From NCBI RefSeq assembly GCF_000003605.2, contig NW_003149775.1, positions 57,658 through 121,657 of the forward strand: a stretch of DNA of 64,000 nt, read 5' to 3'. This stretch comes from Saccoglossus kowalevskii (Eukaryota; Hemichordata; Enteropneusta; Harrimaniidae). Below the pieces are notes generated by a model that saw only the letters and a list, made by a program, of their open reading frames with translations, had not been told where the DNA came from and did no database searches. Below, piece by piece: positions 1-63,759 of this stretch (within the stretch, counting starts at the first letter, position 1; the number at the start of each line of letters is the position of its first letter). The position numbers and the translations under genes were made by a program.

Positions 1-153
1 GTAAAAAAAGACAAGGAAAACTTATCCTACCAGCTACCATGTCGGATGCCGAGCAGCGGCTACAACCCAAGCTATAAATCCGGACAGGAAAAAAAGCAGG
101 CGATCCAGCAAAGCTCGCTAGATTTCATCTCCACCGAGGCGGAGAGAAATTAA
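1..153 (+). CDS. 3'-terminal coding exon of an unidentified gene (partial)
   Basis: The frame is open from the first base for 50 codons and stops with TAA at 151-153. It begins VKKDKENLSYQLPCRMPSSG and ends DFISTEAERN. The stretch is clearly richer in G+C than the non-coding DNA that follows and has balanced, hydrophilic amino-acid use, as expected of a real coding end. The exon start, any upstream exons and the promoter lie outside the window. I do not recognise the protein: there are no cysteine motifs or membrane segments, only a Lys/Gln/Ser-rich tail. The first AATAAA downstream is at 547-552, which would give a 3' UTR of about 400 bases. A chance ORF is possible but less likely given the composition. 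Confidence 0.5.
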   Translation, partial: VKKDKENLSYQLPCRMPSSGYNPSYKSGQEKKQAIQQSSLDFISTEAERN

Positions 154-2593
154 GAGTGATAGACGGCTGCCTATGGCGTTGCCATGTGGCCTCGGTCACG
201 TGGGTTCGTGACGTAAGGGATAAAAGAATCTTGAGGTCATGGGGCTTCCCCTGACCTGGATTCTATCTCTCCGTCACCGGCAGAATCGCTGATTAATGCC
301 TACAGTTCAAAATAGTCATTTTGACTGACCGGAGTCTATGGTGGGTAATTGAACGTAGTGAATGAACCGATTTCCGCTGTATGTAGGTGTCCTATATTGC
401 AAATGCGAGATGAGAAATTAAAACACGTTGTACACACTCGTAGACTTTATTCATAATATAAATATGTATTTTATGACACGACAAATTACACATATTATAT
501 TTGCAAAATAATGACGAATTCGTCACATGTGAGTCGCACTTGTTGTAATAAACACAAACTCACTACTATCCACAAACTGTCGAACTCATATCCTATTTTT
601 TTCTATATTCTGCCATTGAGTTATAATTGAATCAGACGTTATATAATACAAAAGGATTGCCACCATCCAACACGAAATTTACATGACAATCAATATCTTT
701 GATAGCTGATAAAAATACTACTGCGCATGTACAAGCAAGCTAAATTACTAGTAGGTTGTTCTTAGTAGAACCACAGTCTGTGGTAGAACACTGTGATGAG
801 AAGACACTATATACCACCATAGGCCTTGTATATTACTAATTATATGCGTTGTAAGAACCACCTAAATAAGCACATGTACAGTTCTGAAGACAGGGTCACT
901 TGAAGGGCGGTAGTCATCGCGCCGCGCATGTGCGACATTTGTGTTCAAGTTGATAAACAATCCAATGCGCTTTTTTTATGAAATCACGGGTACGAGTTTT
1001 GCCGTGGACACCATTTGCACTAATTACCGCCGACGACTCCTTCAATATCTCCAAAACACCAAAACAAAATACTTAATTAAAGCTTTGTAACATCTCAGTT
1101 TGTTCTCGTTGGTGTGCGCTACAGTAAAAATCGCCATGTTTGTTTATATGAGACCCATAAATGGAACATATTAAAAACCACTGACATTACCTTGAAAAGT
1201 GCTAAAATGTTTGTATTTTTATTCAAACGGTCTGTATAATTTGCAAAGCTGTACGTACATAATGAATAGTATAGTTTGGCTTTAAAAAACATTGCCGAAT
1301 CTCCAAGTATTTAACAATAAATAACATTTTACAAAATAGAATGTTCACGTAAAATATATACTAGTAGTCACTTTGTTATATGTGACTGTGTGTGAATGTT
1401 TATGCAAATTAGTCTTCCTTATTTGCAAAACGTGCGTCATGTTTACACACACTCTAGTTGCTTACGCTCGGTTGTTATCTCCGCCAAATATGCTAAATTA
1501 CCCAGACAGGTTTTATATCTACTACTAAATACCCTCGTTTGCCCTTTGTAACCTCTAAGAATTGTTACTACACACAGGAAAATGCAAAATAATAAGTTTA
1601 TCCCGAGAACACCGCGAGGTATTTACTCAGGTAGTACGGGGTCGCAGTCGTTAACCGTACTGCCTTCGTTCATACTTTATTTTACGATATTTTGGTTTTA
1701 CTCGATTTTAGTTTACAACGTAGTGACGTCACGATTATAATGTATTGAGAATACAATCGTGACTTAATGTAACCATGTATTGTGACTGACAGCGTTACTC
1801 TGCCAGATTACCAGAGCAAATTACGTATTCAAGAAAGAAATCAGTAACCGCCTGTGGTTACCGTTTTTGTAAGATACTGACCCCTTCACACGCACGCAAG
1901 AACACAAACTGTAAACCACATATGATATTCAGAGATAATGAGAAGTATAATAAATTCATCTATACCACGTACATAGTGATACATTTCGTTATTAGTTGAG
2001 AAAAAATACATTGTCACTAAACTATTACACTCAGATATACAATGTAAATTCATTAAACTTGAAGAGAACGGAAATGCTATAGTGGTAAATTCAAGGTGAA
2101 GTTCAATGAATGTGAAATATACATTTAACTATCTATTGTGATTTTAACAGTGAAGTGAGCAGTAGAACACGTATAAAATTGAAATGCATACGATAGTGAG
2201 TAAGTTCGATTCACGGACACACAACTTGTGCGGAATGACAAATTATCCTAAGTAGCAACCATAGCGACCGCCATTGTTGGTAATATCTCTACACAGTCGT
2301 TGCCAAATACATGCGTGCATAAAATACATTGTAGTTTTAAAACAATTTTCAATCAAATATTTACATTACATTATATACAGAATATATTATATGTATATTA
2401 AACTGTTTTTTTAATACGTACATAATTTCTGACTATGACTGAATGGACGGAATATGACCAGGTTCTTTATTTAGTGTATTTCAAACAAAACACTTGCTTA
2501 TATGAAATGGACAATATGCTGAGATTTCTGCTAAACTCGAATGACGTCTATCATATATTTCATGTGTTGTTGATATTTATATACATTGTAGAA
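154..2593. other. 3' UTR then intergenic DNA
   Basis: No convincing exon on either strand. A candidate poly(A) signal for the upstream gene lies at 547-552. At about 893-1010 there is a weak resemblance to the short inverted-repeat element at 53837-53967: a shared AAGGGCGGT start followed by CGCGCCGCG. The rest is AT-rich and featureless. Confidence 0.5.
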
Positions 2594-2900
2594 AATAGGT
2601 GATTTTCCGTTCAACTGCGAGATCTCGTGAGTTGCGTGAGAGATTTCGTAGCTCACATCGAAAGGCCGATCTTTGACAAGGAAATATTCCGTTTGAATAC
2701 CCTTACTTCATCAAAATTGACCATCATCAAATGTGTACAGCACATTATTAAGCATGGAAATATTCCCCAAAATACTTTCGTATTCATTGAATCCCACGTG
2801 ATGTTTGTCGCCACTACGACACTATGACCTTTGTTTGTCCTGTTCGATTTCACCGTGACGCATAACGCGGGATCTCGAAGTGAACGGAAAATGGTCTATT
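2594..2900 (+). mobile_element. MITE-like element A, copy 1
   Basis: A 307-bp non-coding element with imperfect terminal inverted repeats. The left end reads AATAGGTGATTTTCCGTTCA; the right end, reverse-complemented, reads AATAGACCATTTTCCGTTCA (17 of 20 match). The bases GAA occur just outside both ends and may be a short target duplication. A diverged second copy in the same orientation lies at about 12891-13252. The most conserved interior is 2700-2790. Small antiparallel ORFs inside are not coding. The transposase superfamily cannot be assigned. Confidence 0.65.
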
Positions 2901-3738
2901 GAAGCTCCTGACTGTGCCACACTTAATGTTTTCAAATTTCTATAATTGCGGTAGATAAACAAACCTAAAAATGGCAATAATACTGCCCCTATCGCGTTTA
3001 GCTAATCATATACATTTAATTTACATATTTACACGTCATTACGGGGATGTTATAATATAATGACTAAATAAGAAACCGATTAATAAAATATCTATCGAAT
3101 TTAATAAAGTAATTACACATTTTACAATCAATATAGCTGTACGATTTTACTTATTAGCGCCCTCTGTGTGATTGACATTTTAATAAATAGTTATAATAAA
3201 ATACTAAATGAACAATCATTCCAGGCCATATTGTCATTGAGATCATGTATATGTATACAAATAGTCAACTGTACATATATAAATGGACGGACGGAGTATC
3301 GTCCCGTCTCGTCTTGTAATATACACTAGGAAATTTGGAAGGATAAAGTAAAATAGGCATTTTAAGAACGAATAATGAGATTCAGGTATCTTATTTGATA
3401 AGATTTTCTAAAAATACTAATGTTATATCAGAAAAAAACTGTACCATTGATACTGTTATTGATTCGTTGATTTTCGGTTAAAACGCTCTTACTGTTTGTT
3501 AAGGTACAACATATGACGTCACAAGGTGAGGTATAGAATTAGTACGTGACTAATGTAATTCACATATTTATACATGAATTTGCGTTGGGATATCGTTATT
3601 TGTTTAAAACAATGTTTAGTGCTATATCAGCAACCGACTGGCAACATTTGTAACAATCAATCATAAATTTTCATCCAAACATCAACATCACTCTAAATTT
3701 TTGTATTTATGGCAAAACTCATTAAAGTATAAAACTAC
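2901..3738. other. intergenic, nothing recognised
   Basis: AT-rich sequence without exon-like ORFs, inverted repeats or tandem structure that I can support. Confidence 0.5.
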
Positions 3739-3925
3739 GTAGTTAGTGCTAGTGAGGAGCCCAATCTAAGTAGTTGGTGTTAGTGAATGGTCAAATTTGA
3801 GTAGTTGGTGCTAGTAAGTGGTACAATCTGAGTAGTTAGTGCTAGTGAGGGTCAAATCTAATTAGTTAGTGCTAATGGGTGGTCTAAGCTAAGTAGATAG
3901 TGCTAGTGGGTAGTCCATTCTAAAT
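3739..3925. repeat. 31-bp tandem repeat, about 6 diverged copies
   Basis: Units recur every 31-32 bases from 3739, each starting near GTAGTTAGTGCTAGTG. Copies start at about 3739, 3770, 3801, 3832, 3862 and 3893. Copies differ at several positions, so the array is old. Period and base order resemble the 31-bp variant of the large array at 4267-7105. Confidence 0.7.
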
Positions 3926-4266
3926 CCAGTAAAATTGCTTAGGGGAAACCATTTTATACTGTGGTTACAAATGTTTTATATTTTCTTTCATTTGAATATT
4001 AATTTCTACTTTCCCCCAAGACAGATTATTTGTTATTGAGATTCCACCGTTACGTGTATGCATACAATAATTTAGTGTATCACTTTCATATGAGTTCAAT
4101 GAACTACGCATGTAAACACTGATGTAACATTATAAGTAATGTCGCCAGTGTATTTATCTTGAAGTCACCCACTACCAGTTGCTGCTAGGGTACCGCGTTT
4201 GGCGCTGAAATAAATAATATTTATAAATTTCAGTATAATTCGAAAAAATAGTTCTACAAACTTTGG
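3926..4266. other. spacer between two tandem arrays
   Basis: About 340 bases of AT-rich sequence between the 31-bp array and the large minisatellite; no structure recognised. Confidence 0.5.
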
Positions 4267-7105
4267 GCAGTCGTTTAAGTGACGTCACGCAAACTGTATG
4301 CAGTCATTTAGGTGGCGTCATGCAAACTATGCAGTCATTTAGGTGGTGTCACGCAAACTGTATGCAGTCATTTAGGTGACGTCACACAAACTGTATGTTG
4401 TCATTTATGTGACGTCACGCAAACAGTATGCATTCATTTAGGTGGCGTCATGCAAACTATGCAGTCATTTAGGTGGTGTCACGCAAACTGTATGCAGTCA
4501 TTTAGGTGACGTCACACAAACTGTATGTTGTCATTTATGTGACGTCACGCAAACAGTATGCAGTCATTAAAGTGACATCACGTAAACTGTATGCAGTCAT
4601 TTAGGTGGCGTCACGCAAACAGTATGCATTCATTTATGTGACGTCACGTAAACAGTATGCATTCATTTAAGTGACGTCACACAAACTGTACGCAGTCATT
4701 TAGTTGGCATCACGCAAACTATGCAGTCATTTAAGTGACGTCACGCAAACTGTATGCAGTCATTTAGGTGGCGTCATGCAAACTATGCAGTCATTTAGGT
4801 GATGTCACACAAACTGTATGCAGTCATTTAAGTGACATCACGCAAACAGTATGCATTCATTTAAGTGACGTCACACAAACTGTATGCAGTCATTTAGGTG
4901 ACGTCACACAAACTATGCAGTCATTTAGGTGACGTCACACAAACAGTATGCAGTCATTTAGGTGGCGTCACGCAAACTATGCAGTCATTTAAGTGACGTC
5001 ATGCAAACTGTATGTATGTCATTTAGGTGGCGTCACACAAACTATGCAGCCATTTAGGTGACGTCACGCAAACTGTATGCAGTCATTTAGGTGACGTCAC
5101 ATAAACTGTATGCATTCATTTAAGTGACGTCACACAAACTGTATGCAGTCATTTAGGTGACATCACGCAAACTATGCAGTCATTTAGGTGACGTCACACA
5201 AACACTATGCAGTCATTTAGGTGGCGTCACGCAAACTATGCAGTCATTTAAGTGACGTCACGCAAACTGTATGCAGTCATTTAGGTGACATCACGCAAGC
5301 TGTATGCAGTCATTTAGATGACGTCACCCAAACTGTATGCAGTCATTTAGGTAACATCACGCAAACTGTATGCAGTCATTTAGGTGACGTCACACAAACT
5401 ATGCAGTCATTTAGATGGCGTCACGCAAACTGTATGCAGTCATTTAGGTGACATCACGCAAACTGTATGCAGTCATTTAGGTGACGTCACGCAAACTGTA
5501 TGCAGTCATTTAGGTGACGTCACGCAAACTGTATGCAGTCATTTAGGTGACGTCACACAAACTATACAGTCATTTAGGTAACGTCATGCAAACTGTATGC
5601 AGTCATTTAGGTGACATCACGCAAACTGTATGCAGTCATTTAGGTGATGTCACACAAACTATGCAGTCATTTAGATGGCGTCACGCAAACTGTATGCAGT
5701 CATTTAGGTGATGTCATGCAAACTGTATGCAGTCATTTAGATGACATCATGCAAACTATGCAGTCATTTAGGTGGCGTCACACAAACTATGCAGTCATTT
5801 AGGTGACATCACGCAAACTGTATGCAGTCATTTAGGTGACGTCACGCAAACTGTATGCAGTCATTTAGGTGACGTCATGCAAACTGTATGCAGTCATTTA
5901 GGTGACGTCACACAAACTATATAGTCATTTAGGTAACGTCACGCAAACTGTATGCAGTCATTTAGGTGACATCACACAAACTATATGCAGTCATTTAGGT
6001 GACGTCACGCAAACTGTATGCAGTCATTTAGGTGACGTCATGCAAACTATGCAGTAATTTAGATGGCGTCACGCAAACTGTATGCAGTCATTTAGGTGAT
6101 GTCATGCAAACTATGCAGTCATTTAGGTGACTTTACGCAAACTATGCAGTCATTTAGATGGCATCACACAAAGTATGCAGTCATTTAGGTGACATCACGC
6201 AAACTGTATGCAGTCATTTAGGTGACGTCATGCAAACTATGCAGTCATTTAGGTGACTTCACGCAAACTATGCAGTCATTTAGATGGCATCACGCAAAGT
6301 ATGCAGTCATTTAGGTGACGTCACGCAAACTGTATGCAGTCATTTAGGTGACGTCATGCAAACTATGCAGTCATTTAGATGGCCTCACGCAAACTGTATG
6401 CAGTCATTTAGGTGAGATCACGCAAAATGTATGCAGTCATTTAGGTGACGTCACGCAAACAGTATGCATTCATTTAAGTGACGTCACACAAACTGTATGC
6501 AGTCATTTAGGTGGCGTCATGCAAACTGTATGCAGTCATTTAGGTAACGTCACGCAAACTGTATGCAGTCATTTAGGTGGCATCACACAAACTATGCAGT
6601 CATTTAGGTGACGTCACACAAACTATGCAGTCATTTAGGTAACGTCACGCAAACTGTATGCAGTCATTTAGGTGACGTCACATAAACTATGCAGTCATTT
6701 AGGTGACGTCACGCAAACTATGCAGTCATTTAGGTGGCGTCACACAAACTATGCAGTCATTTAGGTGACGTCACACAAACTATGCAGTCATTTAGGTGAC
6801 GTCACACAAACTATGCAGTCATTTAGGTGACGTCACACAAACTATGCAGTCATTTAGGTGGCGTCACACAAATTATGCAGTCATTTAGGTGGCGTCACAC
6901 AAACTATGCAGTCATTTAGGTGACGTCACACAAACTATGCAGTCATTTAGGTGACGTCACACAAACTATGCAGTCATTTAGGTGACGTCACACAAACTAT
7001 GCAGTCATTTAGGTGGCGTCACACAAACTATGCAGTCAATTAGGTGACGTCACACAAACTATGCAGTCAGTTAGGTGACGTCAAGTAAACTGTGCAATAT
7101 TTTAG
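4267..7105. repeat. 2.8-kb minisatellite with a CRE palindrome in most units
   Basis: Head-to-tail units of 33 bp and, after loss of GT, 31 bp; length divided by unit gives about 88 copies. Each unit has a GCAGTCATTTAGGTGA segment running into TGACGTCAC, then CAAACT(GT)ATG. TGACGTCA is the consensus full-site CRE bound by CREB/ATF dimers (established knowledge). Many units keep it; others have TGGCGTCA, TGACATCA or TGATGTCA. The 3' part (from about 6590) is dominated by homogenised 31-bp units and the 5' part is a mosaic, suggesting repeated local duplication. The 33-bp period (11 codons) creates spurious Cys/His/Thr-rich ORFs. The array lies just beyond the receptor's poly(A) signal. Confidence 0.95.
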
Positions 7106-7291
7106 GTGCCATTCTAACATTATATATTTTAGGTGATTAGGTGATTTTATTTATTGAGAATTATTTAAAAAATCAGTGAGAAAATATAAATGAATACTTC
7201 ATATATTATAATTTTAGCTATGTTTAGTGAGGAAGAACACAATACAAAACAGCACAGAATACGTACAGCACGTTACAGTTACTGATATCGC
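7106..7291 (-). terminator. 3' UTR and poly(A) signals of the adhesion GPCR
   Basis: On the minus strand, overlapping AATAAA hexamers (plus-strand TTTATT at 7146-7151 and 7150-7155) lie about 140 bases after the stop codon at 7292-7294. Cleavage would fall near 7120-7135, almost at the edge of the CRE minisatellite. Confidence 0.55.
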
Positions 7292-8149
7292 TCAAATATC
7301 ATAGAGTACCTGGCCTTCGTCGGTTGCCCCTGGTAGCCCCACCTGTGAACAAAATTAATAATGTTTATTTTTAATTTAAACAATAATAATAGAAAATGTA
7401 AGCTACGACCCACACTAGTGAACAAATGAGTTTAACTCAAACATAGCACGAATAAATCTTACAGTTGATGTTGATTCACTCTTAGCGACTTGCTTGGATA
7501 TCGTGTTAGTGTCTTTGGAGACAGGAACACTTATATGGTAGAGGTCTGTCTCTTCTTCAATCACAACATCGCCATCTACAGGTCAAATCGAGAATGCAAT
7601 TATTTGAGGGTCGATCGCTATAGATGCATGGAATGTATTTATGGAGGTTAATATCACACAAGTCGTGTTTGATTTCCACTTCATTAACAATATACCTCGA
7701 GTTACATCGATATGAAACCCATACGTCACGTGCCAATCGCACTGTAATGATTTCAAAGATACTCCGTTGACACGTGACAAAGATTTTTCGGATGATTGAT
7801 CGGGTGATTATTAGTATAAAAAGTAACAGTGGTATACGTACTAGATATGGCACTTGGAGTACATCTCTTGTACGGGGTGGAATCGCCGGAGCTTGAAGCT
7901 GCCGAAGTAGTTCGAGTTCTTGCAGTATAACCAGACGATGATCTCTCATACGTCCGAGTATTCTGTCAACGAGAGAATACATTATATTATGCATCATAAC
8001 ACAAACCATTACTGACGATCTGAAGCTGACATATATCAATTATAACGAACACACAACGAATTCTCGCTTACCACGGCGCCTGATGTAGTGATGATTTCTC
8101 CTTTTTGTAGTGCACGTTTCTCCATCTTTCTTTTAAAAGAATGCCTTAT
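7292..8149 (-). CDS. receptor exons 18-21: cytoplasmic tail
   Basis: Exon 18 (8149-8072) starts [17 protein letters not shown], a basic amphipathic segment just after TM7. Exon 19 (7962-7842) is Ser/Thr/Arg-rich ([18 protein letters not shown]), a likely phosphorylation region. Exon 20 (7575-7463) is acidic then polar ([18 protein letters not shown]). Exon 21 ends GQVLYDI and TGA at 7294-7292. The last three residues (Tyr-Asp-Ile) would fit a class II PDZ ligand; that role is inference only. Phases are 0,1,0. Confidence 0.85.
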
Positions 8150-11100
8150 CTGGAAATACATTAATGATAGAAATATAACCTTGTTAAATAAGCTGTTTTT
8201 GGTCCAAGAGAAAAAATCGAAAAAAAATCATGGAAAGTCAAAAATCTTACAGGAAAAGTGTCACAACTGAGAAAAATTAACGTGATATCATGCGATGCTG
8301 AACGTGCTTGGCAATCGTCTCATAGCACAAATGTGCATCGAGTATGAACACATTTGACAATTTTACTGAAAATCAGGTCTTACATTTATCATTTCACGAC
8401 CAATTTTCGCGATTATAACACAGATAAACTAAGAACTAAGATGGCGGATTTGGTGACGATTCGGACAAAAAAATATCACGTGATACTGAATTAAACGGTT
8501 TACGCATGCGTACCTCTGAATTGAACATTCCTTGGAAGAGAAACACAAAGAGTCCCTGAAGAGAGTTGAATACAGCAAAGAGATATTGGAATACTATAGC
8601 GTGTTCATTCACAGCAAACAGACCAAATACCCATGTGATGCCCAGAATGGGAAGCAAAAACAAAGCACTTCTCACGGCAGTCCTGATAAGTAAATATTGG
8701 GTTGATATGTTAAAACTGCGTTGTGAGTAAAATACATGCACAATCATGACAAACAACTGTGTCCCGAACATTTATAACAATTCTCTAGTCAATATAATAA
8801 CTACCATACGGTTTGGAAATCAGTAGAGATTATTACCTGATATATGTATGTTCTTTCTTTTCTGAGGCTGTCTTCGCAGAGACGATCACGATGCGCATGA
8901 CAACCATTAAGATAATGATATTGATCTGAATGAATTGCAGTGATATATTATTAATTACATAAAATACATATGTTATGTAAATGTAATATGATTATGTGTA
9001 CTCTGCAGCTTGTATACATCCAGGGTGGTCATCGCGACATAATGCACTAACAAAATATAAGATTGCTGACTTTTGCAGTAGATGCGTGCATGTGATGTGA
9101 CAGAAACGGATGTTCAATTGTTCGAGTTTGGGCGAAAGTAAGGCAATGTATTTGTGTGCATTTGTGTAGAACACACTCCAAATAATGAACTGATTAGCTC
9201 ACTAAACTAATTGTAATCGCCATACGGGTACATCATTACGTACCATCAACACTGCTAATGCAGGTCCCACGAATGCCCATATAAGGCCACTGCCCATATC
9301 TAGCCAGCACCTGTAATCAGAAACATGGTCAGATGTCATCATTGACACTTTTCATGCCACATTTTTCTCAAACTTTCTTAGAATTACGATAAACATGGCA
9401 CATGCGTATGTAGAACAGTTGTTCTGAATTAACTGACGGATGACGTCAGATGATGAATTTATATATGCAGTCAAGACTGTATATTTTTTGTAGGTCACGC
9501 CCTCTAGTGACAAAGCTATGAATTAAACGGATGTAAGCATAGACGATTGAGAGCTCAATAATGTTTTGATTTCTAGGCATCTGTCGATACAAATATCTTT
9601 TTATGAGAACAGAGTCGTATAATTGAACGACTTTCATTACGCCCACTACGTGATTTTTACGTCATGGAAGTGATTTGGTGTTATAGAATGAGAAATACTG
9701 TTCACATCAGAATACTTAGACCGTACTCACCCTGTGCGTGTTCCATATCCTTCTGGATTTATAGCGACTGATATAGCCACAATCACTGCTGGAATGCCCC
9801 AACCAAACAGAAGATAAAACTTGACTTTGCTACTTTCTGTTCCAAATACAATAACCACTTTGCTGTATAGATGTACCCCCTCCATTAGCATCCACATAAA
9901 CACTGCTAAGAACGATGTGTGCAGTAAAATAGCCACTACCATGCATGCTACCTGCAATATGATAATTAGTAACATACCTTATTAATCAGCGTAAACTGCT
10001 ACTGACCCGGATATTAACTACAATTGTTTTGTTGATTTTTGTTTCATTATGAGGTATCCAGATTGCATCTTCTGAGGCGGGTAAGATAAATCCACCCTTA
10101 TAACTTAGCAGCTACTTAGTTTACGCTCGCATACTCAATCACGTCATGTCACTTCCGGGATCAAGCTGTCACAAACTTGAGCGAGTCAATAATTAAGATA
10201 ATTGAAAAATCCATTAACCTTTCATTCAAACAAATAGATTGACGGCATCACTTGTCAAAAGTTTTTTTTATTTGGGTGAGAGAAACTTAGATACGTGTGA
10301 AGTAAATTATACTTTATATACTATCACCTCGTACTGACGTAGCATATTATGCCTCGCCTCAAACCCTACGTGCTCGCCTAGACATGGATATGTCTCGCGA
10401 GATGCAATACATATGAGGTAACTAGCTTATTAAATTAGGCAGTGCCAATCTTTTACGGTTCAGCACAGGGGAAAGTATAACCGTATTTCAGCGGTGTTAC
10501 GTACATACTTCGTCTGTCTCAGTAGGTCTTAATATGCTATATGGTGAATACGCATTGTGTAACGACTCTTCACTCCCCTGTGTGCAGTAGTCGCAAAATT
10601 GCATTTCCATTAGAGTTTTATTAGCACCAAGTGAACACTCGCTGTTTGGAAATTACATAGTGCATAAATATAGGGGTTGATATGATCCGTGGTTTTTATG
10701 TGAATTAGGTTTTATATATGAATGATTAGTGTTATTTCATTCATTCATTCATTCATTCATTCATTCATTCATTCATTCATTCATTCATTAATTCATTCAT
10801 TTATTCATTCATTCATTTATTCATTCATTCATCCATCCATTCATTCATTCATTCATTCATCCATTCAATGAAAAATGACATTCATTCATTCATTCATTCA
10901 ATGACATTCATTCCAGCTTAACAGTAATTCAACAATAAAGCGATAACTTATGTCACGTTAAATTATTCCAGGCATAACATGAGTCGCGGTAGGTTATATC
11001 TAAGCCTGTAATAAATTCCATGGGTATCAAACCAGGGATATGTTTGTTTATAACAAAATTTGTTCAATACGTAAAAGTAAATGGCTTTGGTATTAATCAA

Positions 11101-14100
11101 TTAGTATTAACCATATGGTATATATGGTATATCACGAGATTTCACACAGAATCACGAACTAAATTGAACAATTATCGCTAACTTCGATTATCTGACGTCG
11201 TTTGTTACTCTGAGATCTAATTTTCCATTTTACCTAATATTTTATGAATCCGCTTTCTAAGAATAAAACTATACTTAACAGGTAAATCGAACGTTACTTG
11301 TTTAATATTAATACTTGCGATTCATTGTTGGCGATAACATAACGCCTGCATATACTGGATGACTTTCTACTACTCTGCAATTTGATTGTTTGAAGTTGAA
11401 CATTGTCGAATATGAACGGATCTGTTTACTCAGAGAAGTGTGCACAGAAATATAGACACTCTGATTATTAGAAGAGCGGGGTTGCTCAAAGCAATATACG
11501 TGTTTCAAACAGTGAACAATTAATTAAGTTAGAACACGAACTTGATTAATTTACGGGAATGGGATATACTTTGACGTACGGGGATAACGTGTGTCTCTTG
11601 ATAAACGACGCCGGTCACTTGTAACTAAGAGGTTCATAAATCAATTACACCAATCTTGTATAAGTACATGGTTCTTTTACCCTATTCCAATCAGCCTTGC
11701 ACTAAGAGATGGTCAGTATGGCTTAGTTTATTGTATATCGCAGTAATCCACTTTAGTTTCTCACGTTTTGACATGCTTGTAATTAAATACTATCGCAGCT
11801 ACAGCTGCACAAGTTCAAATACAATAATGGAAAAATTCATCAAACTGTGTGTCAGAATATGTCAAATGTTCTAGAAACCGATTTTTCTTCACTATCAAAA
11901 TCATTCTTGCGGTGCGAGGTTATCTATCCGTCAATTAATAACGTACAATATTTCACACTCATTGACATTCAGTGGTAAACAAGAAATGAGATGTTATTCT
12001 GTGACGACCGTGGCAGTAGAGTGGATTCCGCGAACCGTTTCTATGAAGACAGTTTAGTCACAGAACATCTTAATGTCACAATATTTATAAATACTTCACG
12101 GCTTACGAAAATGTGAGAGAAAATTACACATGAATCTACGAATTCGAGTCGAGCACCAGCGATATTTGTAAACACCAGCGTTATGTGCACAAGATATCAC
12201 GTCAACATCACGATATATTTACGTCACGTATCACACCTGGGATATACTCATATCACATGACGTCACTTAAAAACTGCGATATATTCACGTGACGTCAGAT
12301 ATTTTGCATGAATACTAAGTAAATGGTTAACTTACTTTGTTACTGGTGGCTGATACTCCAGATAAAAACACTGTCTGTGCTATAATAAGCGCGATAATTA
12401 AATTAAAGTGAATGATATTGTGGTCATATTTCAGAGTACTGCAAATGAAAAAAATAAACATCTGTAAAAATCGATTCATTTTTGAAAATAACATGAATCT
12501 GCTACCATTTTAATACTGGCTGGTTATCATTCACCATTACTAGTAACAAAGTGAATGCAATTCGCAATGTTGTAGTAATTACTTTTTTAATAAAGCGCAC
12601 CAAAACACTTCGCCGACCTAAATTGTAACCCCTATTCAAAAGTTGTATTACACGTACCGACAGCACATCAATCTAACCGTATACCAAATAGTAGCATGAC
12701 AAGAAGGGTGTGTTAACCTGGTGCCCGGTAATTTAATGATTACATCGAATGCATTAATTAAAGTCTCCGCTGTGGGACAATCGTCCTTTAAAACTAATTT
12801 TGTGTGTCACGTGATAGTATTTGCCAGCAGCATATCGAATCAAATCGGCCGATAATGTTTATGAATTGAACAGGATTGGCTGCTGTTATTAGTAGGTGAT
12901 TTTGCGTTCACTACGAGATTTCGCATATGAAAGGCGCGCGGGCAAACGTTGCCGCAAAAACGTAATGATTTGATTATGCACTTGAACTTTTATATACTAG
13001 TATAGCTCAATGATAATGCCGAACTTTCAGAGAAGAATATTGCGCTGAAATACCTTTACTTCATCAAAATTTACCATCATCAAATGTGGACAGCACATTA
13101 TTAAGCATGGAAATATCGTAAAAATACTTTCGCGTTTGTCGAATCCCACGCGATGTTGACGCCGCTACGACGCTATGACCTTTGTTTTTCTTTTTGTTAC
13201 GTTCGATCTCACGCATAACGCGTGATCGCGAAGTGCATGGAAATGACCTATTCCGCAAGTCAATGTATACATAAGTGAAATAATCAATTGCATACAGTGA
13301 GATACAGACTATGTACAATACAGTGTATAAATATGTTAGATGAACTCACTCTAGCCATATAAACATAATTGCAGTTCCAACCAATGCAAATAACGATATA
13401 CTACATCCAACCATAGTGATGATCTCCAATGCCTTTACATGTGTTTCTGATATCTGTGTTCAATAACAGGAAATACATAATTTAACGTAGGGAAACGTAA
13501 CGCGAAGAAGTGTTATTAATTGTGTGTCGTTTTGTTTCCATAAACATAAATTGTTGTTCGGCTAGTTGCTGATGTGTTTAGTGACTTGGCAGGCTTATGT
13601 CACGTGGTTATATGTGTATGGTATTTATTACCGTGACATGGAATCATAGTACTTTTCAGGAAAACACAAAATTAATCATGATTTTAGCGAGATGTTCTAA
13701 TACTTTTGATTAGTTATGTAGGAAACGATTACCAAATATATCATGCAGAAGTTCTCGGTTTCCATGAGAACTGTGCGTCGTAGTTTATTTCGCCTTTTAA
13801 ATAATTCGAACAATCTGTACTTGAAATAAAATGGAATACGTATCTCAGTTTGTATTACTTGTAACACTGGCCTGTAATCACTGTTTTACTAATTTCGTTA
13901 AAGGGACATCTTCATTTAAATCTAATCTTACAAAAAATTTGCTTTCTGGAATAAAATTACAATGATAACAAAATATAGATTAAAATTGTAAACAACATAA
14001 AGAATAGTGTCCCATAATTCCTAGGTTTGGCAGGTTCCCCTTTAAAGGGTGGTGCTCGTCGTGCCGCGTTCTGTTCGATATGGGACTCATAGAAACTTAC

Positions 14101-17100
14101 ACAACGCGTGTGAAATACATTGTTAATTTTCATGAAATTCGAACACACGCCCTTTAATTTCACTTAGTAATAATCAAATAAATATTATATTGTTTTACCC
14201 TCAATCCCCCGCAACGCTGTTTGCTTAACTCAGAAATCTCTGTTTTTTTGTTTCATTCAAGTTAATTAGAAAGTTGCCATTAGCTCATATACAAGTATTA
14301 TTGCAATACCATAGCACGTGTAATAGTGTATGAGCTATCAGAAAGCATGAATTAAATTGTAATAAGAATCAAATGAAAACAATCATGTATCGGTAACTAA
14401 GAATATATGCACATAGCTGACGTCATTACGCGGATTAATACAGACCATATATGACATATCACCATAAACGACCGGGTGACGTTGACAGAGAAAAGTTTTA
14501 TTTATACATTTTATAAAGACGTTGAAAAACTAAGATTACTAGATTCTAATACCAATAATTAGTTTCGTCGATATCATAAAGGTCCCTACTAAAGTTCAAA
14601 GTCGCTGTCATACAAGGTGATACAATAGGTGAAACAGTAATTTAACGTTAATGAGTTTTCATAAATGTCAATCCACGGCAATGGTCGTTCACTGTTGTGC
14701 GAACAGCGGTGTATACTATATTTAGCAATGAGTTCTGATTGTTGAGCTACAATGAGTGCATAGCTTTGTATAATGGCAACACTGTTTCCATGCATACCCT
14801 GAATAGCCTAATTTATCTACAATATGAAGTTTTCAAAAATCACTAATGAGGAAAGTATGTAAGTTAATACAGAATTTATGAATGCCAGTAAAATCCCGAT
14901 GTGTACAATGGCATTTGGATTACAACTCATATTTGCTATGATGTTTGTAGTGAATAAACTCTGCCATGCTTTGCTCACACAGCCAAATTACAATGTATCG
15001 TTAGACAGGCGTGCTGGCGAATATTGAATCGCGGCGGACAGTGCTTGTACCTGTATTTATTTGTCTACGAATGTACCAATAATATTAGGAGATTACCGTA
15101 TGCATCTCACGAACGTGAATGGTTTCGGGTGAATGCATAATGAATAATCAGTCTGTCAAGAATTCTTTAAAACAGAATTGTTAAGGTGGAACTGCGCATT
15201 ATGGAGTGCAACACACTCGGGGTTAGCACCTTGCAATGAATAACGTAACCATCAACTATATTCCTCCGTGTTTGCACATATAATTTACAGTTTTGCATTG
15301 TTTGAAAGACATATTTTCATTATAACTTATAACAAAATAAAATAAAACATATTAGCGTAATCGAGTTAATCCGAAATGAAACCGCATATTTCAACGAAGA
15401 CTGTTCACATGGAAAGCTGCACGTTGTTCGGTATGGTTCTACGTAATGTTTGAGCCGATAGGAAAAAATGCCATAATCTTTTCACTTTTATTATTATGAT
15501 ATGAAAAAATACACATTTGGGTCAGTGTCAATTTTTCATGAAACAAAATTCCCGAAATGTTATGGACATGGGTCAGAATTTGCAATTTTGCTGACTTTTA
15601 TTATGAGATTATTTCTTCGTATCTCAATTTTTTCTCGGTACCATGGGATTAAAATGTCATATAGTTGATATAAATCCCACATATTTTAAAAATGACATTC
15701 TCAGTGAGTTTTCAGTGTGATATTATATTCCCATCACATACAATGGGATATTCCCATAATGCATTGCACAAATGTGCAGTGACATGCTCAGTAGTGACAC
15801 ATTTGAATTCATTGCGAACTGCCTTAAATACATTGTTTGTATATACAAAGTACGAGCACGTGCTTTGCGGCGACGACGGCACTTTCATTTCCCACTGACC
15901 ACCTCACCACGCCGACAATTGTTGACTATTGCAGTTTCGACGTGATGGAAATTTTACATGTAAAATTTGTGTACATAACTCTCACAAATGAATCGATCTA
16001 TTATTTCACAAATCAGAAATCATTATTCGCAAACCAAAGAATCATATAAAGTGTTCTGGCAAGCAGGCTAATGAATTGTTCAATACCACTGTTTCGTCTG
16101 TGACAGTTACCACATAGTTTAATTTCCGTAGATGGTTACCATTCATTCTCCATTGTTATTCGTTATCATGGCAACCAAAGCAACCCCGAACACTCAAGTC
16201 GTTGTCACTATTTCTCTCTGAATTTTAGCTCATCCCAAAATGTCTCTGTGAACTTGTGTTCAGCCTGTTTTCTTCAATTCGCTGTTCTTTTGAAAACTTC
16301 TTGAAGGGTCTTCCTGATTGATGACGACATCTATTCATGGATTTTCCGCATTTGCGACTGGTGTGCGTCGATGACTACTGCTAAAACAGTTGACCACACA
16401 GCCCCTCCCCCACCACCACCACCGACGCACGCATACACAATAATCGGGCTAAGAATTATAATGGCGGCTTGATACATGTGCAGTCATATATGTTGTCATT
16501 GGCGTGACCATGCGCGTCCGTTACAGGACATCAAGCGTGGAAGTATTAAACTGTAATCTCTGTTTATCATTACTAAATGTATACTACCAGTACATATAGT
16601 GTAAATAATTGATAGCAATGCATGGATGTCTGTGCAGTGCGAGCATCTCTCTAGTGATACCTGGAAGAATTGATAGCAATGCATGGATGTCTGTGCAGTG
16701 CGAGCATCTCTCTAGTGATACCTGGAAGAATTGATAACAATGCATGGATGTCTGTGCAGTGCGAGCATCTCTCTAGTGATACCTGGAAGAATTGATAGCA
16801 ATGCATGGATGTCTGTGCAGTGCGAGCATCTCTCTAGTGATACCTGGAAGAATTGATAGCAATGCATGGATGTCTGTGCAGTGCGAGCATCTCTCTAGTG
16901 ATACCTGGAAGAATTGATAGCAATGCATGGATGTCTGTGCAGTGCGAGCATCTCTCTAGTGATACCTGGAAGAATTCATAGCAATGCATGGATGTCTGTG
17001 CAGTGCGAGCATCTCTCTAGTGATACCTGGAAGAATTCATAGCAATGCATGGATGTCTGTGCAGTGCGAGCATCTCTCTAGTGATACCTGGAAGAATTGA

Positions 17101-20100
17101 TAGCAATGCATGGATGTCTGTGCAGTGCGAGCATCTCTCTAGTGATACCTGGAAGAATTGATAGCAATGCATGGATGTCTGTGCAGTGCGAGCATCTCTC
17201 TAGTGATACCTGGAAGAATTCATTTTTATTTTCATGCTCGGTTGTGTTTGTTGCTAAACCCGTTGTTAACGCAATTGTTGCCAACACTGGATCACCTAGG
17301 GGAAACTCTGATTGAATCATATCTCGTGAAATCTCGCCAGATTTAAACGTCGAAAGTCTCCGTAAAATATTATTGGCGAGGACTGCGTGATCACCTATCA
17401 CCGTATGTTGCACGTGTTGGTATTTTGGATTAATGGCCCCACAGTCTTCCTGTCATGTCCGTGATATAAGACTACCTGTATCGACTCGTTACTTCTTTAA
17501 TTCAATTTGGTGAGGAGACGTGTTTTAGGAGCTGTTGTCGTGCATAGAATGCACAGTAATCTCTAGCATGAATTAACGGACATGCCAAGCTGACATACCC
17601 TCTATTAAGCTTTAGTGACGGTAATATTTGGACCTAGACGCTTCGCATACAAGCTACAAACCAGTAGTTGAATCAAAGCAGAATTTGATACATCGACAAA
17701 AAATGTTGACAGATAAACTGCTCTCTGATTGGTCTAACTGTTAGATGGTCGAGTTGAGTAGCCAATCAGGTAACATCTTATAATTCGGGGATATACATGT
17801 ATTATAATGTGAACAGCACACATTTACGGTCTCTGGCGCCCTTGTTAATCATGCCGAATCGCAATAATCATCAAATAATATTAAATTACAACATATAATT
17901 CCATTTCAAGACCTATTATGGCATCACGAATGAATACTGACACATGTCAAAACGCATTGATTTTACATTTCGTTAATTTGCCTATCGTATTTGACTCTTT
18001 AACATAGACCGAAAGTGACAACGTGAAAGACGTATTTTTAATTATGTGACCATTAGGCAAGCACATCAAATATAACTACGGCTGTTTGTGTGAATTTAGA
18101 TGAGCCTGACATTGTGCATATATTTTATTGAAGCAGTTTGAGTATCTTAGCAACCATTCTGTTTCAGAATTTATGGTTCTATATTGTTACTCAACTAAGG
18201 GAATTGTTTTATTTAGTACTCCTTAACTTGCAATAGTATTTTCAATGTTAAAATTGTCATGTGGTCTGCCTTTCTGAGTGATCACTCATAGATACGAGTC
18301 AAACACAAATGGCCTTCGCAAACAAGACATATAGTGTTAGATAACACAAGTTAGATATTAAGTAATGAAAATGTCCACTGATTTCGTCACACTGCCTTTC
18401 AAACATTTCATAGGATTTTGTAACAAATTTTTGGAATATTGAATAAATTAATTATTACACATAAGGCTATAGTTACACTTACCGTGAATTCTTTGATCTG
18501 CATAAGGACGGCAAAATTAGTGGTGTGATTACATTGACACTTGGTGTGGTCATTGTTTGACGCATCGTAATCAACGCTACAACCAAATTGTTCCCACACT
18601 CTGTAATAAGATGAACAGACAATATATGCTGTATAATACGAATAACGTTGATCATTTGCCACGAGTAACATTGATAAGCGAGGTGTAACTGTACGCTGAC
18701 ATTTTCGGGAGCTACTCGGTTATTACTACCGATCGATTGTGGAATTTAATTTTAAAACAAAAAAACATGACAATTAGCCAAATTAGTAACGTTTAGCCAA
18801 TACAAATTAATAAATCTTCGTTATAACCACTCAAGTGATATTAGTATCGGTACATGCGTGTGAAACCAATAGCGATGCATGCAGTGGTATTGCGCTGATT
18901 TCCACTTGTGTCGACATTTAACGAGAATTACTGTAAATGAGATGACGATATTATGTTTCACATTAATAAACAGAGTAGTTTCAGAACCCGATATTCTGTC
19001 AGATTGCAACGCTCTAATACACGTGTACAAGTATCCTTGGTACAATGAAAGTCATGAAACTAGAAATGCGATATCCCAGTTTACACTAGCAGTAAAATCA
19101 AACTTTTCTGAACATGTTCTACACTGTATCTTTTACTTGCTACCAATTTGTCTAAAAATGTTGAAAACCATTTGCTAGAAAATGCATTCATACACAGTGT
19201 CCATTTACATGTACAGTTCAACATGTAATACTTGATACATGTGTAGCACATGTAATGAATAATCCACGTCATTTCAGTAGACTTACCTTGCGTCGTAGTC
19301 ATAGAAACTACACAGAGGCTGCTGCTTTGTCAGCGTTGTCTCAATCACCGTTGTTCTTGTACTTTCCGTACTGAACATCTCATCAGATCTTGGAATTAGA
19401 GACTGTAATACAAATACACATATAAATGGTTTTCAGTAGTATATTATAAATACACTATGCAATGAGTGAATATTGTAGTATACTGTAAATACACTATGCA
19501 ATGGATGAGTTTTAAAAGGATACTAAAACAATTAAAAGCGGGGGATATTTAGGTCTTTATTAATTAGTTATGTCGCCTAAAATATTAACAGATAATACAA
19601 TTTGAATTCAGATAGCTCCATAAAATAGACAATGGGTCAAAAGTATGCCAACTGACAAATGTGTAAAGACAATTGTAAATTAGAGTTATCACGTGATATA
19701 TATGAGAACGGACACTAATGATAAACCCAGTGGTTGTACTAACCGTTTCACATACACTAGCAACATCATTACAAATTATTGTTTTCTTTGATATGTTTAG
19801 AAATGATACATATAGCTCTGGCTAACAGGAATCTTGTATATTCAGATTGTTTTATCTCTTATATACATCGTTAACAAATATTGAGTCAAGCCATTTTATT
19901 CGCTGTGGTTGCCATTCAGTGTGTGTTATAATTTTGTGTAAACAATGTATATTACACACATTGTAAATGTCTTACACGTGACGTTTTAAATAAATATGAC
20001 TATTTTAATATTAACTGTTTTGAATAAATTGACACAGACTTGGTAATCCATGGGAACACACTGTGTTTTGGTGTAGAGTTTACAACAAGATTGCCTAACC

Positions 20101-29100: not shown

Positions 29101-32100
29101 TCAATCGTGTTGATGTCCTGCCTAGTATGTGTATTTCAATCGTGTTGATGTCCTGCCTAGTATGTGTATTTCAATCGTGTTGATGTCCTGTCTAGTATGT
29201 GTACATGAGAAGTATAAGTTTATTAAAAATGTATATTTTATGAAAATGCATAAAAGTAAATATCATTTATCTAACATAATCCACTTACATGCCACGTGCA
29301 CCTAAAATCGTCAACGTGTTTTCCACTATCTCGTCAAGTTTACGTCATACACCGTAACATATAAACTGTGGCAATCGCTGTTAGTATAGTACACAATTCA
29401 AAAATTGTATATACACAGCGTGCACATATACTCACTTGAATAGCCGTAATGTGATTGGATATGAGCATCACCAGTGTTATCTACAAACAGTGTAGTGATA
29501 TGTTCTTCCACGGCCCTAGCCACAATGAGCTTGTCTTCCTCAGTCTGGGAATGTCATTGAATCATAACAAATTCAAAATTAGAGATGGACACAACGTGGT
29601 TCATAATAAAAATGTCGCAATACTGTCTCGCCAACACACCGGTATAAGTCATACAAAACTATTAAGATTTTGAAAAATATTTATTTAGACGTATTCAAGT
29701 CATGTGCAATTTGTATTTCCAACTTAATATACTAGTAGTAGAATTAACTCTGAATACCGTAGTTTGTACAATATATGCGATCCAATGCATTATCATAGAC
29801 ACGTGACGTTGACCTGCCTTCCTTGCGAAATCGACAACTAGATTTCATACAACACAACACAGCACCTTGCAATACAACGTAACAAAACGTACCTTTAGCG
29901 ATTGAGGTTCCATTAATTTTGAGATGACTTCAAACAGATTCTATTATAAAACAAACAAAAAACGTTTGTAACACATGAACTATTCTGTCAGATTGTTAGT
30001 ATGCATATATATATTGTACATATGACTTCATGTTGTATTATATGACGTCACAATTAATATTAACATATAGAATAAAGTTATTGACAAAGTGGCGATTCCA
30101 TTTTTTATTCCAAAGTTGGTTAATCAGGATACATCAAGTTTGTATATACATAAAATGTTTTTGATGATCAATGAGCTAACACTCACTTGGACTTTGTTTT
30201 CTACCTCTGCAACTGGATCAAATGGCGGTTGCGTTGGTGGAAACACTTTCTTTCGTCCCGTTCCTCGCGTACCTCGTTTCTGAAATGCATATTGTATGTA
30301 AGTATGATCATAACACACACATAAAACGTTGATAATTGCGAGAAGGCCCAAGCCATGTTAAAAACGTTGATAATTGCGAGAAGGCCCAAGCCATGTTAAA
30401 AACGTTGATAATTGCGAGAAGGCCCAAGCCATGTTAAAAACGTTGATAATTGCGAGAAGGCCCAAGCCATGTTAAAAACGTTGATAATTGCGAGAAGGCC
30501 CAAGCCATGTTAAAAACGTTGATAATTGCGAGAAGGCCCAAGCCATGTTAAAAACGTTGATAATTGCGAGAAGGCCCAAGCCATGTTAAAAACGTTGATA
30601 ATTGCGAGAAGGCCCAAGCCATGTTAAAAACGTTGATAATTGCGAGAAGGCCCAAGCCATGTTAAAAACGTTGATAATTGCGAGAAGGCCCAAGCCATGT
30701 TAAAAACGTTGATAATTGCGAGAAGGCCCAAGCCATGTTAAAAACGTTGATAATTGCGAGAAGGCCCAAGCCATGTTAAAAACGTTGATAATTGCGAGAA
30801 GGCCCAAGCCATGTTAAAAACAATTTGTAATAGCGACCATACAATAAATTGCTATGTGCTAATCACGACCATATAATTAGTACATGTTTACTGTTAAACT
30901 GAATTAAATCATTGATATGACTGGACATGTTTTAAACACAAACGTATTCCGTGTTTGGCAATATTCATATAATGCATATGCACTATGTATGTTACTAACA
31001 TACATTGTGAGTGATGTCATAAATTGTCTGCAAATCTACTTATGCGAGAATTCCCTTTATTGAATGGCAACATGAAAGTAAAAAGCTCCTAAGTTTTAAA
31101 ACAGGGGCAACCGTATCAGTATACGATAGTGGTTGACTAATGTACTAAGGCTAATCCAGCTTATTACAGTGCACATACTGCTAGATTGGATTAAAGTAAC
31201 CACACACAAAAATATCACGCTCAGTATAAAAGTAAATCACTCTAGATCTTAGTATATTACTTTAAATTGAATTGAGACATAATGGCGAGTGTTTGTTCCA
31301 ATACCACAGGTATCTACAGCCTTCTAAGCGGACTAATTGAATTTAAAGATTTGTCTGTCTGTGTTTTGTTACTACTATAGTAAAACACGACTTCTTTCAG
31401 TGTCCATGCTGTGTTTTAATGTTGATATATATAATGGAGATGTGTCACCATGGATACTGTATATGCGAATATTGCCATATGTATTTTTGATATTTACACA
31501 CTTTATTTGGCACGCCTTGAAAAACCAACCTTGAATCTGATTATACGGAATTGCACGCCGTAACAGTAAGTATGACTTGAAATTGCTGTCAACGTATTAC
31601 ATCAAAACATGCATTTATTATAAAATATCGCATTGAACAGGAAGGAAACATATATATAAAGATAGGTGCTTACATAGATGTGCTGTGTGCTAAGTATGCT
31701 ATGAATGAAGCGTTACTTACAATTCTAAATACACTTTGTTCACGTTCAGTCGTAGCACTGCATGCAGTCACTGAAATGGGAAACAGAAAAATCACTATGA
31801 TTCGCCCTTATATGATTTCATAAAGGCATAGGTTTATTGTTAGGGTCGTCATCATGTTTACAATTTCAAATGAATATTGCAAACATATTTCCCAGAAAAC
31901 TGTGAAATCACAAACCGTACATTATGGGAAAACGTAATGACGGAAACTCATATTGGGTAATATCAAAATACACACACACACACGCAATCGAATTACCAAT
32001 TGATTGCCAACCGTCAACGAAAAACGCTCACCGTGATTGCAAGTACCAGTTAAGGTATTGGTATAGTCAACTTTTTTAAATGTTAGCATATAACTGTAAC

Positions 32101-46487: not shown

Positions 46488-47039
46488 GACTTAATTAGCT
46501 GATTATTAGCGAATTGCTGTGTTATGTCTGTCATCGTTTAGGCCTATTTGAAGTTTTGGACGGAACTTGGCTCAGTGATTTGGAACTAATTACCAGATAA
46601 GCGCCGCTATTCAGACTACTCATTTTGACAGTTTATATTCATAGTTATTAATGTAGTGAACGATTAATCAAAAGATATGACGTATTCAGTACTTAGTGTG
46701 ATTGGCTTTATGATTGAAGGTTACGCCCTAGAGTCTTTTACTGTTTTGTAATTGGTTAGAGTTTTGAAAATGAATAAAGAGAGTTTGAGTTGGTCTTGGC
46801 GAATACTCCACGACAGACGCAGTCGAGAGTCCAGTCCAGGGGCGAGCCTTGAGGCAGTCCAGTCTTGGGCGAGTCTTGGCACAGCCTTGAGATAGTCTTG
46901 GGGATTTTTTCCCCAGGGCGCTGTAAGGCGTAAGTGACTTTCCCGATCCCGTACCTCAAGGGGACGAGATAGAGAGACGAGACGAGTTTTCCCCCTGGCA
47001 AGTGTGGAGAACCCAGAGGAAAAGAATTTACCCCTGACA
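46488..47039 (+). repeat. dispersed repeat R, copy 1 (possible solo LTR)
   Basis: About 550 bp homologous, in inverted orientation, to 63293-63759. Both begin ACTTAATTAG and end near CCCCTGA. They share TCAAAAGATATGACGT, TTAGTGTGATTGGCT, GGTTACGCCCTA and TTGGTCTTGGCGA. Copy 1 has about 80 extra bases in its last third. Two internal poly-CAGTC/CTTGG degenerate stretches make the minus strand open for 106 codons (47076-46756); that ORF is not a gene. Its twin adjoins a Ty3/Gypsy fossil, so it may be an LTR, but TG...CA ends are not evident. Confidence 0.65.
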
Positions 47040-47403
47040 TATATATGATATTGTAAAATCTGATAAACTCGTGCACGTTGAAGATTTACTAATTTTCTGA
47101 GTAAATCTTGTAAAATAAAAAGTGATCTACAAAAAAATGTAATGTGCTCTCAGTATACGTACCCATTTCGCGAAACGACGAACTAAGCTGTGAAAACCAT
47201 CATAGGTCTTACCATGATAAGATGCGACTCACTAATGAACATCCCACTAACACGCACCGCTGCGATTCTGAACTGTCATCAACTCTAGTAAATAGTGTTC
47301 GGGCTTTGTGACCTCCAATTATTATATTGTTATATTATTGGTGACTACTGAATATACGAAATTATGAAAAGAAAAGACAGAAAATGTGCATGCTAAGATT
47401 TTT

Positions 47404-56865: not shown

Positions 56866-56889
56866 CATTCCTGTCTCATGGAGGGGGGT

Positions 56890-57262
56890 ATTGCGTTGAG
56901 CATCGTATATTCACTGACGTCACTGTAAGACACTTGATACTCAGCAAATATATACTAGTATACTGACTTCATTGTGTGGTGGGATATGCTGATCAACGTA
57001 TATGCATTGACTTCCCTGTGTATGGGGAGGGGGAGGTGTGTGCTGAGCAGCTTATATACGGACGTCGCTTTATGTATGGAAAAACATATTGCACTAAACA
57101 GCGTATATACACTGGCGTCAACTTGGCGGTATTAGACTGAGCTATACACAGCTATTCACTGTCGTCACTATGTGTGCAGGGGAAGTACTGTGATGGGCAG
57201 AGTATATACACTGACGTCACTGTGGGTGATATTATGCTGAGCAACTTATATATACAGGTCAT
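56890..57262. repeat. degenerate 46-61-bp minisatellite with CRE-like sites
   Basis: About 8 diverged units built on (T)GAGCA.CGTATATACACTGACGTCACT. Perfect TGACGTCAC is retained in the first and seventh units; others read GGACGTCG, TGGCGTCA, TGTCGTCA. Sequence outside the CRE core is unlike the 4267-7105 array. Confidence 0.75.
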
Positions 57263-58297
57263 AGGGGAATTAACGTCGTGACTCTATGTCACGTTTGCTT
57301 GAGGTACAGGATCGGAAAAGTCACTTAAACTTTACAGTCAAATAGACAAAAATAGAAATACGTTTTAACTCTCGTCTTTAGACGGACAGTCGAGTATTCT
57401 ATAAGACTGCATTTATCAAATCATGTGCCTCAAGCTGGTGGAAAAATCTCAATGTTCAAATAAAACATGACATGTCATAGCCCTCCCCTCAGAAAACAAT
57501 GTAAAACTGATATTGGTTTGTGTCAGAGTGAATTTATCCATTATGAGCTGTACTAAAGTTTATTTATTAATTGTTCAGAATTGATGTGAAACAATTTTAG
57601 GGGATGAGGTAAACAAATAATAATTGTCTCAGACGAGCTAAATAAATAACTTGAACAACATATAAATAACGCGATGTGTTCATTCAAAATATATTCAATC
57701 AAACAAGTCAGGAATGACACTGCCTTCGCTTGTTGTCATTTAAAAGTTGCAACATATAATATAATCACTTGTTGGCACGGACACACATTGGCAAACGTGA
57801 TTTCTATGATATTTTCAAGTTTATAGCACACTCCATCCCGGTCAGCATTATTCTCAGCAAGAAAACCAGATATAAACAGAACAGTAAAACGACAAGTAAG
57901 TATGCAAATCAGATCTGAAAAGAGTCTGTGTTGTGTCTGTTTGGACACACTTTCTTGTACATCTGTATTCTAATACAAGGACACTATCAATCACCGAACT
58001 GTTGCAGTAAAAAAAAACTATGACATTTTTGACAGTACCAGGGTAATGCTACTGCTTGTCATACAAGTACTAGCACCAGATGAGGAACTGCGAAACTGCA
58101 ATCATCCTTGGTGTACAGTACCTGTAACAATAACCCTACTTACCGGTTCTTTACATACATATCTACATGTAGTTTGTGTCCGAGGATTAGTTTCAATATC
58201 TCTAATAAGGACAAGAGTACTTCTCATATGACAATGATACATTAAAAGTGCAAGAATCTAGAAAAATATTATAAGTTTTTATTACCACATATTAGTA
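57263..58297. other. intergenic, nothing recognised
   Basis: AT-rich. A plus-strand ORF at 58046-58231 has the phrase NCNHPWCTVPVTITLL but no supporting splice signals. Confidence 0.4.
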
Positions 58298-63293: not shown

Positions 63294-63759
63294 CAGGGGA
63301 AAATTCTTCTCTGAGGGGTTCTCCACACGTGCCCTGGGGAAAAGTCCCCAAGACTATCGCAAGGCTGACCCAAGACTGCCTCTAGACTGCGTCAAGACTC
63401 GCCCCAAGACTCTCCAGGTCTGGACTGCGTCTGTCGAGGTGTACTCGCCAAGACCAACTAAAACAACTATATTCATTTTCAAAACCTTAACCAATTACAA
63501 AGCAGTAAAAAGACTGTAGGGCGTAACCTTCAATCATACAGCCAATCACACTAAGTACTTAACACGTCATATCTTTTGATTAATCGTTTACTACATTAAT
63601 AACTGCGAATACTAACTGTCAGAAATAGTAGTCCGAATAGCGACGGTTATCTCGTAATTAGTTCCAAATCACTGAGTCGAGTTCCGTCCAGAACCTCAAA
63701 TGGGCCGAAATGATGACAGACATAACACAGCCATTCGCTAGTAATCATCTAATTAAGTT
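63293..63759 (-). repeat. dispersed repeat R, copy 2
   Basis: About 467 bp, the reverse-complement partner of 46488-47039. It shares AATCACACTAAGTACTTA, TGACGCAGTCTAGAGGCAGT-like runs and a CCCCAGGGCACGTGTGGAGA segment near its end. In transcript sense it runs directly into the Gypsy pol fossil, so it may be that element's LTR with the intervening gag lost. Confidence 0.65.

Follow-up and report, generated by a model that had tools for sequence, protein, structure and literature searches.

The systems closest to the locus described here come from human and fission yeast work and from the general class of noncoding minisatellites. The GGAA microsatellites associated with EWS-FLI1 place a transcription factor motif in tandem repeats (PMC2654724). 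Human satellite III (SatIII), reported to be pericentromeric and transcribed under stress, is a tandem repeat linked to a stress-activated transcription factor, HSF1 (PMC8144429). In fission yeast, the M26 and CRE-like sites of Atf1-Pcr1 share a related core and the ATF/CREB protein family with the sites considered below (PMC9775316). In addition, CRE methylation at the mouse insulin promoter has been reported to lower CREB/ATF2 binding in vivo and not in vitro (PMC2735004).

We analysed a stretch of 64,000 nucleotides from Saccoglossus kowalevskii (contig NW_003149775.1), hereafter the window, and identified a small array between genes. This array is known from sequence alone, and it differs from the GGAA microsatellites in both motif and unit length and from SatIII in its size and location. 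The M26 sites, as described, are single sites with the heptamer ATGACGT, which was found in 7 of the 88 units here, and the mouse insulin promoter CRE is a single site in a mammal, whereas we are dealing with an array in another animal. In common with noncoding minisatellites, the array has head-to-tail units of 31/33 bp, several unit types, a higher-order period and a block of apparently recent expansion; unlike them, it carries a strong known transcription factor palindrome in each unit. No report of a natural CRE array was found in the literature covered, which took in few subscription journals. Judged from one sequence, the best reading of the array is that of a noncoding minisatellite.

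Structure of the array and the neighbouring receptor gene

The array and the features around it are as follows.

4267..7097, plus strand: minisatellite of 88 head-to-tail units of 31/33 bp, each with one CRE or CRE derivative
6404..7066, plus strand: most homogeneous block of the array, receptor-proximal, 21 units
3731..3923, plus strand: unrelated tandem repeat with a 31-bp period, without a CRE, 340 bp before the array
7146..7155, minus strand: two overlapping AATAAA, putative poly(A) signals on the receptor strand, at plus 7146 and 7150
7290..7345, minus strand: candidate last coding piece of the receptor, with a stop codon at its end, after a plausible splice acceptor
8439..9978, minus strand: receptor exons with 7tm_2 domain pieces (8439-8771 and 9730-9978), from Pfam and PDB matches

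TRF placed the array at 4267-7093 with a period of 33, 87.9 copies and 87% matches, and an additional row gave a higher-order period of 130 bp. Splitting by hand yielded 88 head-to-tail units of 31-34 bp, a length well inside the range of roughly 10-100 bp that characterises minisatellites. There are 48 units of 33 bp, 39 of 31 bp (counting the degenerate last unit, which was trimmed to 31 bp) and one of 34 bp, and a 2-bp gap distinguishes the 31-bp form from the 33-bp form, AAACTGTATG against AAACTATG. With unit lengths of 31 and 33 bp the reading frame is not kept across units, and a coding repeat was therefore rejected. A hairpin or cruciform unit was likewise rejected, as single-strand folds of two unit forms were no better than those of shuffles (z 0.12 and -0.29), and the units and sites of the array had no helical phasing (P about 0.75). 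The tandem repeat at 3731-3923 has a similar period; a kinship between the two was rejected, since shuffles scored as well in 85/200 and 68/200 cases.

The consensus CRE bound by CREB/ATF, TGACGTCA, is exact in 43 of the 88 units; a further 35 have one mismatch and 10 have two. Thus 78 units carry the palindrome or a one-base variant, and the statement of the first-pass annotation that most of about 88 head-to-tail 31/33-bp units do so stands on both counts. Across the whole window the exact palindrome occurs 56 times (43 in the array and 13 elsewhere) against 1.3 expected, with a maximum of four in 100 shuffles. The 43 exact sites in the array are copies by descent, not independent events. 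They are dispersed along its length, the longest run being three consecutive units. Such a concentration of sites in one place could in principle make the array a decoy that titrates CREB/ATF, and decoy sites are reported to titrate factors in engineered bacteria (PMC7826281). However, one array of 43 sites is probably small beside all the CREs that an animal genome is likely to contain, and we regard titration as highly improbable.

The neighbouring gene was earlier noted as a GPCR, and our searches identify it as a minus-strand gene for an adhesion GPCR. Matches to Pfam 7tm_2 fall in the minus-strand frames 8439-8771 (E 2.7e-13) and 9730-9978 (E 9.8e-22), and a Pfam GPS motif lies in the minus-strand frame 18411-18719 (E 6.2e-10). 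The PDB sequences nearest to frame 9730-9978 are ADGRD1 and ADGRL3. The AATAAA pair at 7146-7155 puts the start of the array about 50 bp beyond the likely poly(A) signals of the receptor, close to the distance of about 40 bases given before. On the other side of the array, no nameable reading frame was found in 1-4266, where frames were judged without a Pfam scan.

Substitution in the CRE core and at CpG sites

We aligned the 88 units by hand, leaving out one base of the 34-bp unit. Raw deviations from the consensus were seen in 55 of 704 cells in the core, in 113 of 2024 in the flanks and in 74 of 352 in the four CpG columns. Since unit counts overstate the number of events, parsimony steps were counted on a tree that takes each of the 56 unit types once; under this tree model, which exchange between units violates, the core took 20 steps in 8 columns and the flank 44 in 23. 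Core columns were then matched to flank columns by class (CpG, other G/C, and A/T), with permutation within classes. In this matched test, which weak selection could escape because it compares eight core columns on a tree with poor resolution, built from 56 short sequences, the core showed 20 steps against 18.4 expected; totals of at most 20 came up in 56% of the permutations and totals of at least 20 in 54%. Unit counts led to the same picture, with 55 deviations observed and 65.3 expected (P 0.47 and 0.56).

By this test the site is not conserved beyond its surroundings. Of the unit's 31 octamer windows, taken circularly, that of the CRE, intact in 43/88 units, was tied for 13th-14th lowest and had the 8th most steps. 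Loss of the first half of the palindrome through A12G was independent of CpG loss (both in 7 units; Fisher P 0.79), which gives no sign of half-site protection. The core columns T10, T15, C16 and A17 are nearly invariant, but the A/T columns of the flank are nearly invariant as well, and for this reason the matched test offers selection no support. Pointing the other way, once the CpG columns (22 steps in 4) are set aside, the core has fewer steps than the flank, with 7 in 6 non-CpG core columns against 35 in 21 non-CpG flank columns. Overall, the CRE of the array changes as its bases predict. The first-pass annotation had left open, as a matter of inference, whether the array is a decoy, an enhancer or an inert satellite, and this caution was appropriate. 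It had also named a core mutating as fast as its flanks, together with closed chromatin in all tissues, as the sign of a neutral satellite; the first of these is the pattern that we found (20 steps against 18.4 expected), and the functional reading that it suggested is not supported.

Reporters usually carry far fewer CREs than 43, and among the functional alternatives an enhancer is the most testable. The array might be a cAMP- or stress-responsive regulatory element, either an enhancer or a 3'-end element, that serves the receptor or another gene through CREB/ATF on the intact sites. Its 2.8 kb hold 43 intact palindromes and adjoin the 3' end of the receptor, an intron of the same gene contains the four-site CRE cluster described below, and GGAA microsatellites with EWS-FLI1 are reported to show that tandem motif repeats can be enhancers (PMC2654724). 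Against this, the CRE is not conserved in excess, and the GPCR neighbour is one fact about one gene that has no weight alone. We consider a regulatory element of this kind unlikely.

The consensus unit contains two CpGs. The first has been lost in 25 of the 88 units, 21 of them as CA or TG, and the second in 48, of which 46 are CA or TG, so that 67 of the 73 losses follow this course. Inside the array the ratio of observed to expected CpG is 0.84 and the TG+CA ratio 1.83; the corresponding values outside are 1.00 and 1.26. Deamination of methylated cytosines would fit this pattern in the array, and the surrounding stretch has no general CpG loss. The CA forms could be ancestral, and transitions from G/C to A/T are also frequent at non-CpG positions of the array, so methylation is something that we infer. 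The earlier suggestion that methylation of the CpG within the CRE could act on the array is plausible.

These same values would also fit an array that is maintained in a methylated or heterochromatic state, in which ATF-family proteins perhaps aid its silencing, and Atf1 is reported to participate in heterochromatin assembly in fission yeast (PMC9389250). The yeast comparison is remote, however, and both the possible ancestry of the CA forms and the transitions at non-CpG G and C tell against such a state. We find it quite unlikely as the explanation of the array.

CRE sites elsewhere in the window

Two further groups of CRE-like sites were found.

12188..12300, strand not assigned: cluster of four CRE-like sites, two of them exact, spanning about 100 bp of a putative receptor intron, beside what we take to be a candidate TM2 exon
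56883..57263, strand not assigned: second tandem repeat, in a decayed state, with a period of about 50 bp and seven units bearing a CRE or a derivative

Outside the array, TGACGTCA occurs 13 times against about 1.1 expected, an excess of about tenfold (shuffle mean 1.08, maximum three in 40 shuffles), and it is the most over-represented of the 256 palindromic octamers there. Sites with at most one mismatch number 47 against 25.6 expected (shuffle maximum 34). When 19 repeat intervals were masked, including the clusters at 12.2 kb and 56.9 kb, nine exact sites were left against 1.13 expected, and the CRE word ranked third of 32,896 octamers with strands pooled. Above it stand AGAGGGCG (6 against 0.23), which we take to resemble the CTCF core, and CACGTGAC (12 against 1.65), presumably resembling an E-box. 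Next below is TACTAGTA (9 against 1.13), which together with TTACGTAA is an example of the palindromes matched to TGACGTCA. As these words rank near the CRE, the excess is not confined to it. The 56.9-kb repeat holds five CRE-like sites within 300 bp and the 12.2-kb cluster four; the highest number in shuffled sequences was three, reached in 5/40. Twelve other TRF repeat intervals in the window contain no CRE-like site, indicating that CREs are not general to the repeats of this window.

The two exact CREs of the 12.2-kb cluster are 32 bp apart, and the spacer between them resembles the array spacer on the opposite strand with a score of 23. In a first comparison of this pair with the array unit, 11/300 shuffles were as good. 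On the minus strand, 1/2000 mononucleotide shuffles and 0/5721 window positions were as good; on the plus strand, 304/2000 shuffles were; with both strands pooled, the numbers were 5/3000 mononucleotide and 31/3000 dinucleotide shuffles. A profile of the array unit gave an E of only 0.4 at 12256-12271 on the minus strand and did not pick out the cluster. The segment 12258-12297 may be related to the array unit in inverted orientation, or be a relic or relative of its seed; this is a post hoc lead with modest support. In addition, the cluster and the 56.9-kb repeat have the stretch TATATTCAC(G)TGACGTCA in common, with 6/300 shuffles as good. The cluster is a candidate regulatory cluster or repeat relic.

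In the 56.9-kb repeat, the exact TGACGTCA is found in 2/7 cores, with 3/7 one base off and 2/7 two bases off. In a register anchored on the core, agreement with the consensus was 49 of 56 cells in the core and 135 of 210 in the remainder. With a mean pairwise identity of 0.774, the core octamer ranked third among the 31 windows, behind two (0.804) that are offset from it by one and two bases. Because this repeat was discovered through its CREs and anchored on them, its apparent conservation is biased toward the core. The 50-bp period is absent from the TRF output even at a score of 30. Sequence kinship with the main array unit was rejected, since 300/300 shuffles were as good on either strand.

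It is conceivable that the CRE sites themselves drive array growth, if chromatin opened by ATF/CREB-type proteins were prone to meiotic breaks and CRE-bearing repeats expanded more readily as a result. In fission yeast, ATGACGT bound by Atf1-Pcr1 is reported to be a meiotic hotspot, but the full CRE TGACGTCA in ade6 was, in the same report, neither bound nor recombination-promoting (PMC9775316). Within its 64 kb the window does hold two or three CRE-bearing tandem repeats; however, the active heptamer is present in only 7/88 units of the array, and the 12 other TRF intervals lack a CRE-like site. We judge site-driven growth to be very improbable. In a broader version, the CRE palindrome would be a recurrent seed of tandem repeats, with independent arrays arising, growing and decaying near genes, through ATF/CREB-driven exchange or because some are retained as elements that respond to cAMP or stress. 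Three ages of a single process would then be represented in the window, by the main array, by the 56.9-kb array and by the intronic cluster; we hold this idea to be quite improbable.

Several other features of the window were recorded. Near-perfect minisatellites without a CRE-like site lie at 16607-17220 (61 bp x 10.1, 99%) and 30323-30821 (38 bp x 13.1, 100%). Pieces of a subtilase-like gene occupy 48307-54331 on the minus strand, with a Pfam Peptidase_S8 match in 48307-48549 (E 4.6e-9) and no Pfam match in frames 50338-50664 and 51268-51465; the 56.9-kb repeat is about 2.5 kb from the likely start of this gene. A weak RT_RNaseH match at 60910-61149 on the minus strand (23.2 bits, under the cut-off of 24.8) was read as a retroelement remnant. 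Translations of 46724-47149 (minus) and 63238-63516 (plus), compared by eye among the reading frames listed below about 31 kb and above about 38 kb, both contain GKFFSSGFST.../FIFKTLTNYK..., and these appear to be two copies of a dispersed repeat.

Origin and growth of the array

The 88 units comprise 56 distinct types, one of which occurs 9 times. Mean identity between units is highest for units four apart (0.902), all other lags from 1 to 24 giving 0.864-0.889. In a comparison of blocks that took in 87 of the 88 units, the block at 6404-7066 had a mean pairwise identity of 0.911 and a next-neighbour identity of 0.93, and the three other blocks had 0.854, 0.885 and 0.880; the block at 6404-7066 is probably the most recent expansion. 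The number of unit types, the repeated type, the lag-four peak and the more uniform end block fit exchange and local expansion, and they show the relation by duplication and exchange that is typical of minisatellite units.

A transposon carrier was rejected, as the flanks of about 1 kb had no terminal repeats (direct score 25 against a shuffle mean of 25.1; inverted score 27 against a mean of 25.0 and a maximum of 37). No RNA families or tRNAs were found in the window. The unit profile run against the rest of the window gave a best E of 0.27, below the best shuffle score, and scans with the array-unit pattern gave 0 matches in viral and prokaryote contig collections, neither of which is animal.

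The explanation that we favour, and consider probable, is a noncoding minisatellite that grew from a CRE-bearing seed, with its CREs hitchhiking and decaying. A local sequence containing a CRE palindrome would have been duplicated and, to judge from the unit structure, would then have grown to 88 units by unequal exchange or slippage. Other TRF arrays are present in the same window, so minisatellites are common there. The CREs would have hitchhiked with the seed unit, in a genome where the CRE word is apparently common; the occurrence of CREs outside the array above chance argues against the pure accident of a single seed. The array CREs now appear to decay about as fast as their bases predict, and most rapidly at CpG; this pattern is seen directly in the units and resembles the decay of methylated cytosines. 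CREB/ATF may well bind the intact sites where chromatin is open. Nothing in the sequence seems to point to selective retention of CREB/ATF binding or to service to the receptor gene.

If the array is ordinary in this sense, then it exemplifies a conspicuous motif array that calls for no selection, only for the growth of a repeat and the decay of its CpGs, as a test that uses sequence only can show. If CRE-bearing tandem repeats recur genome-wide, it could be asked whether transcription factor sites influence what sequence is turned into a tandem repeat, and whether natural arrays of many CREs respond to cAMP.
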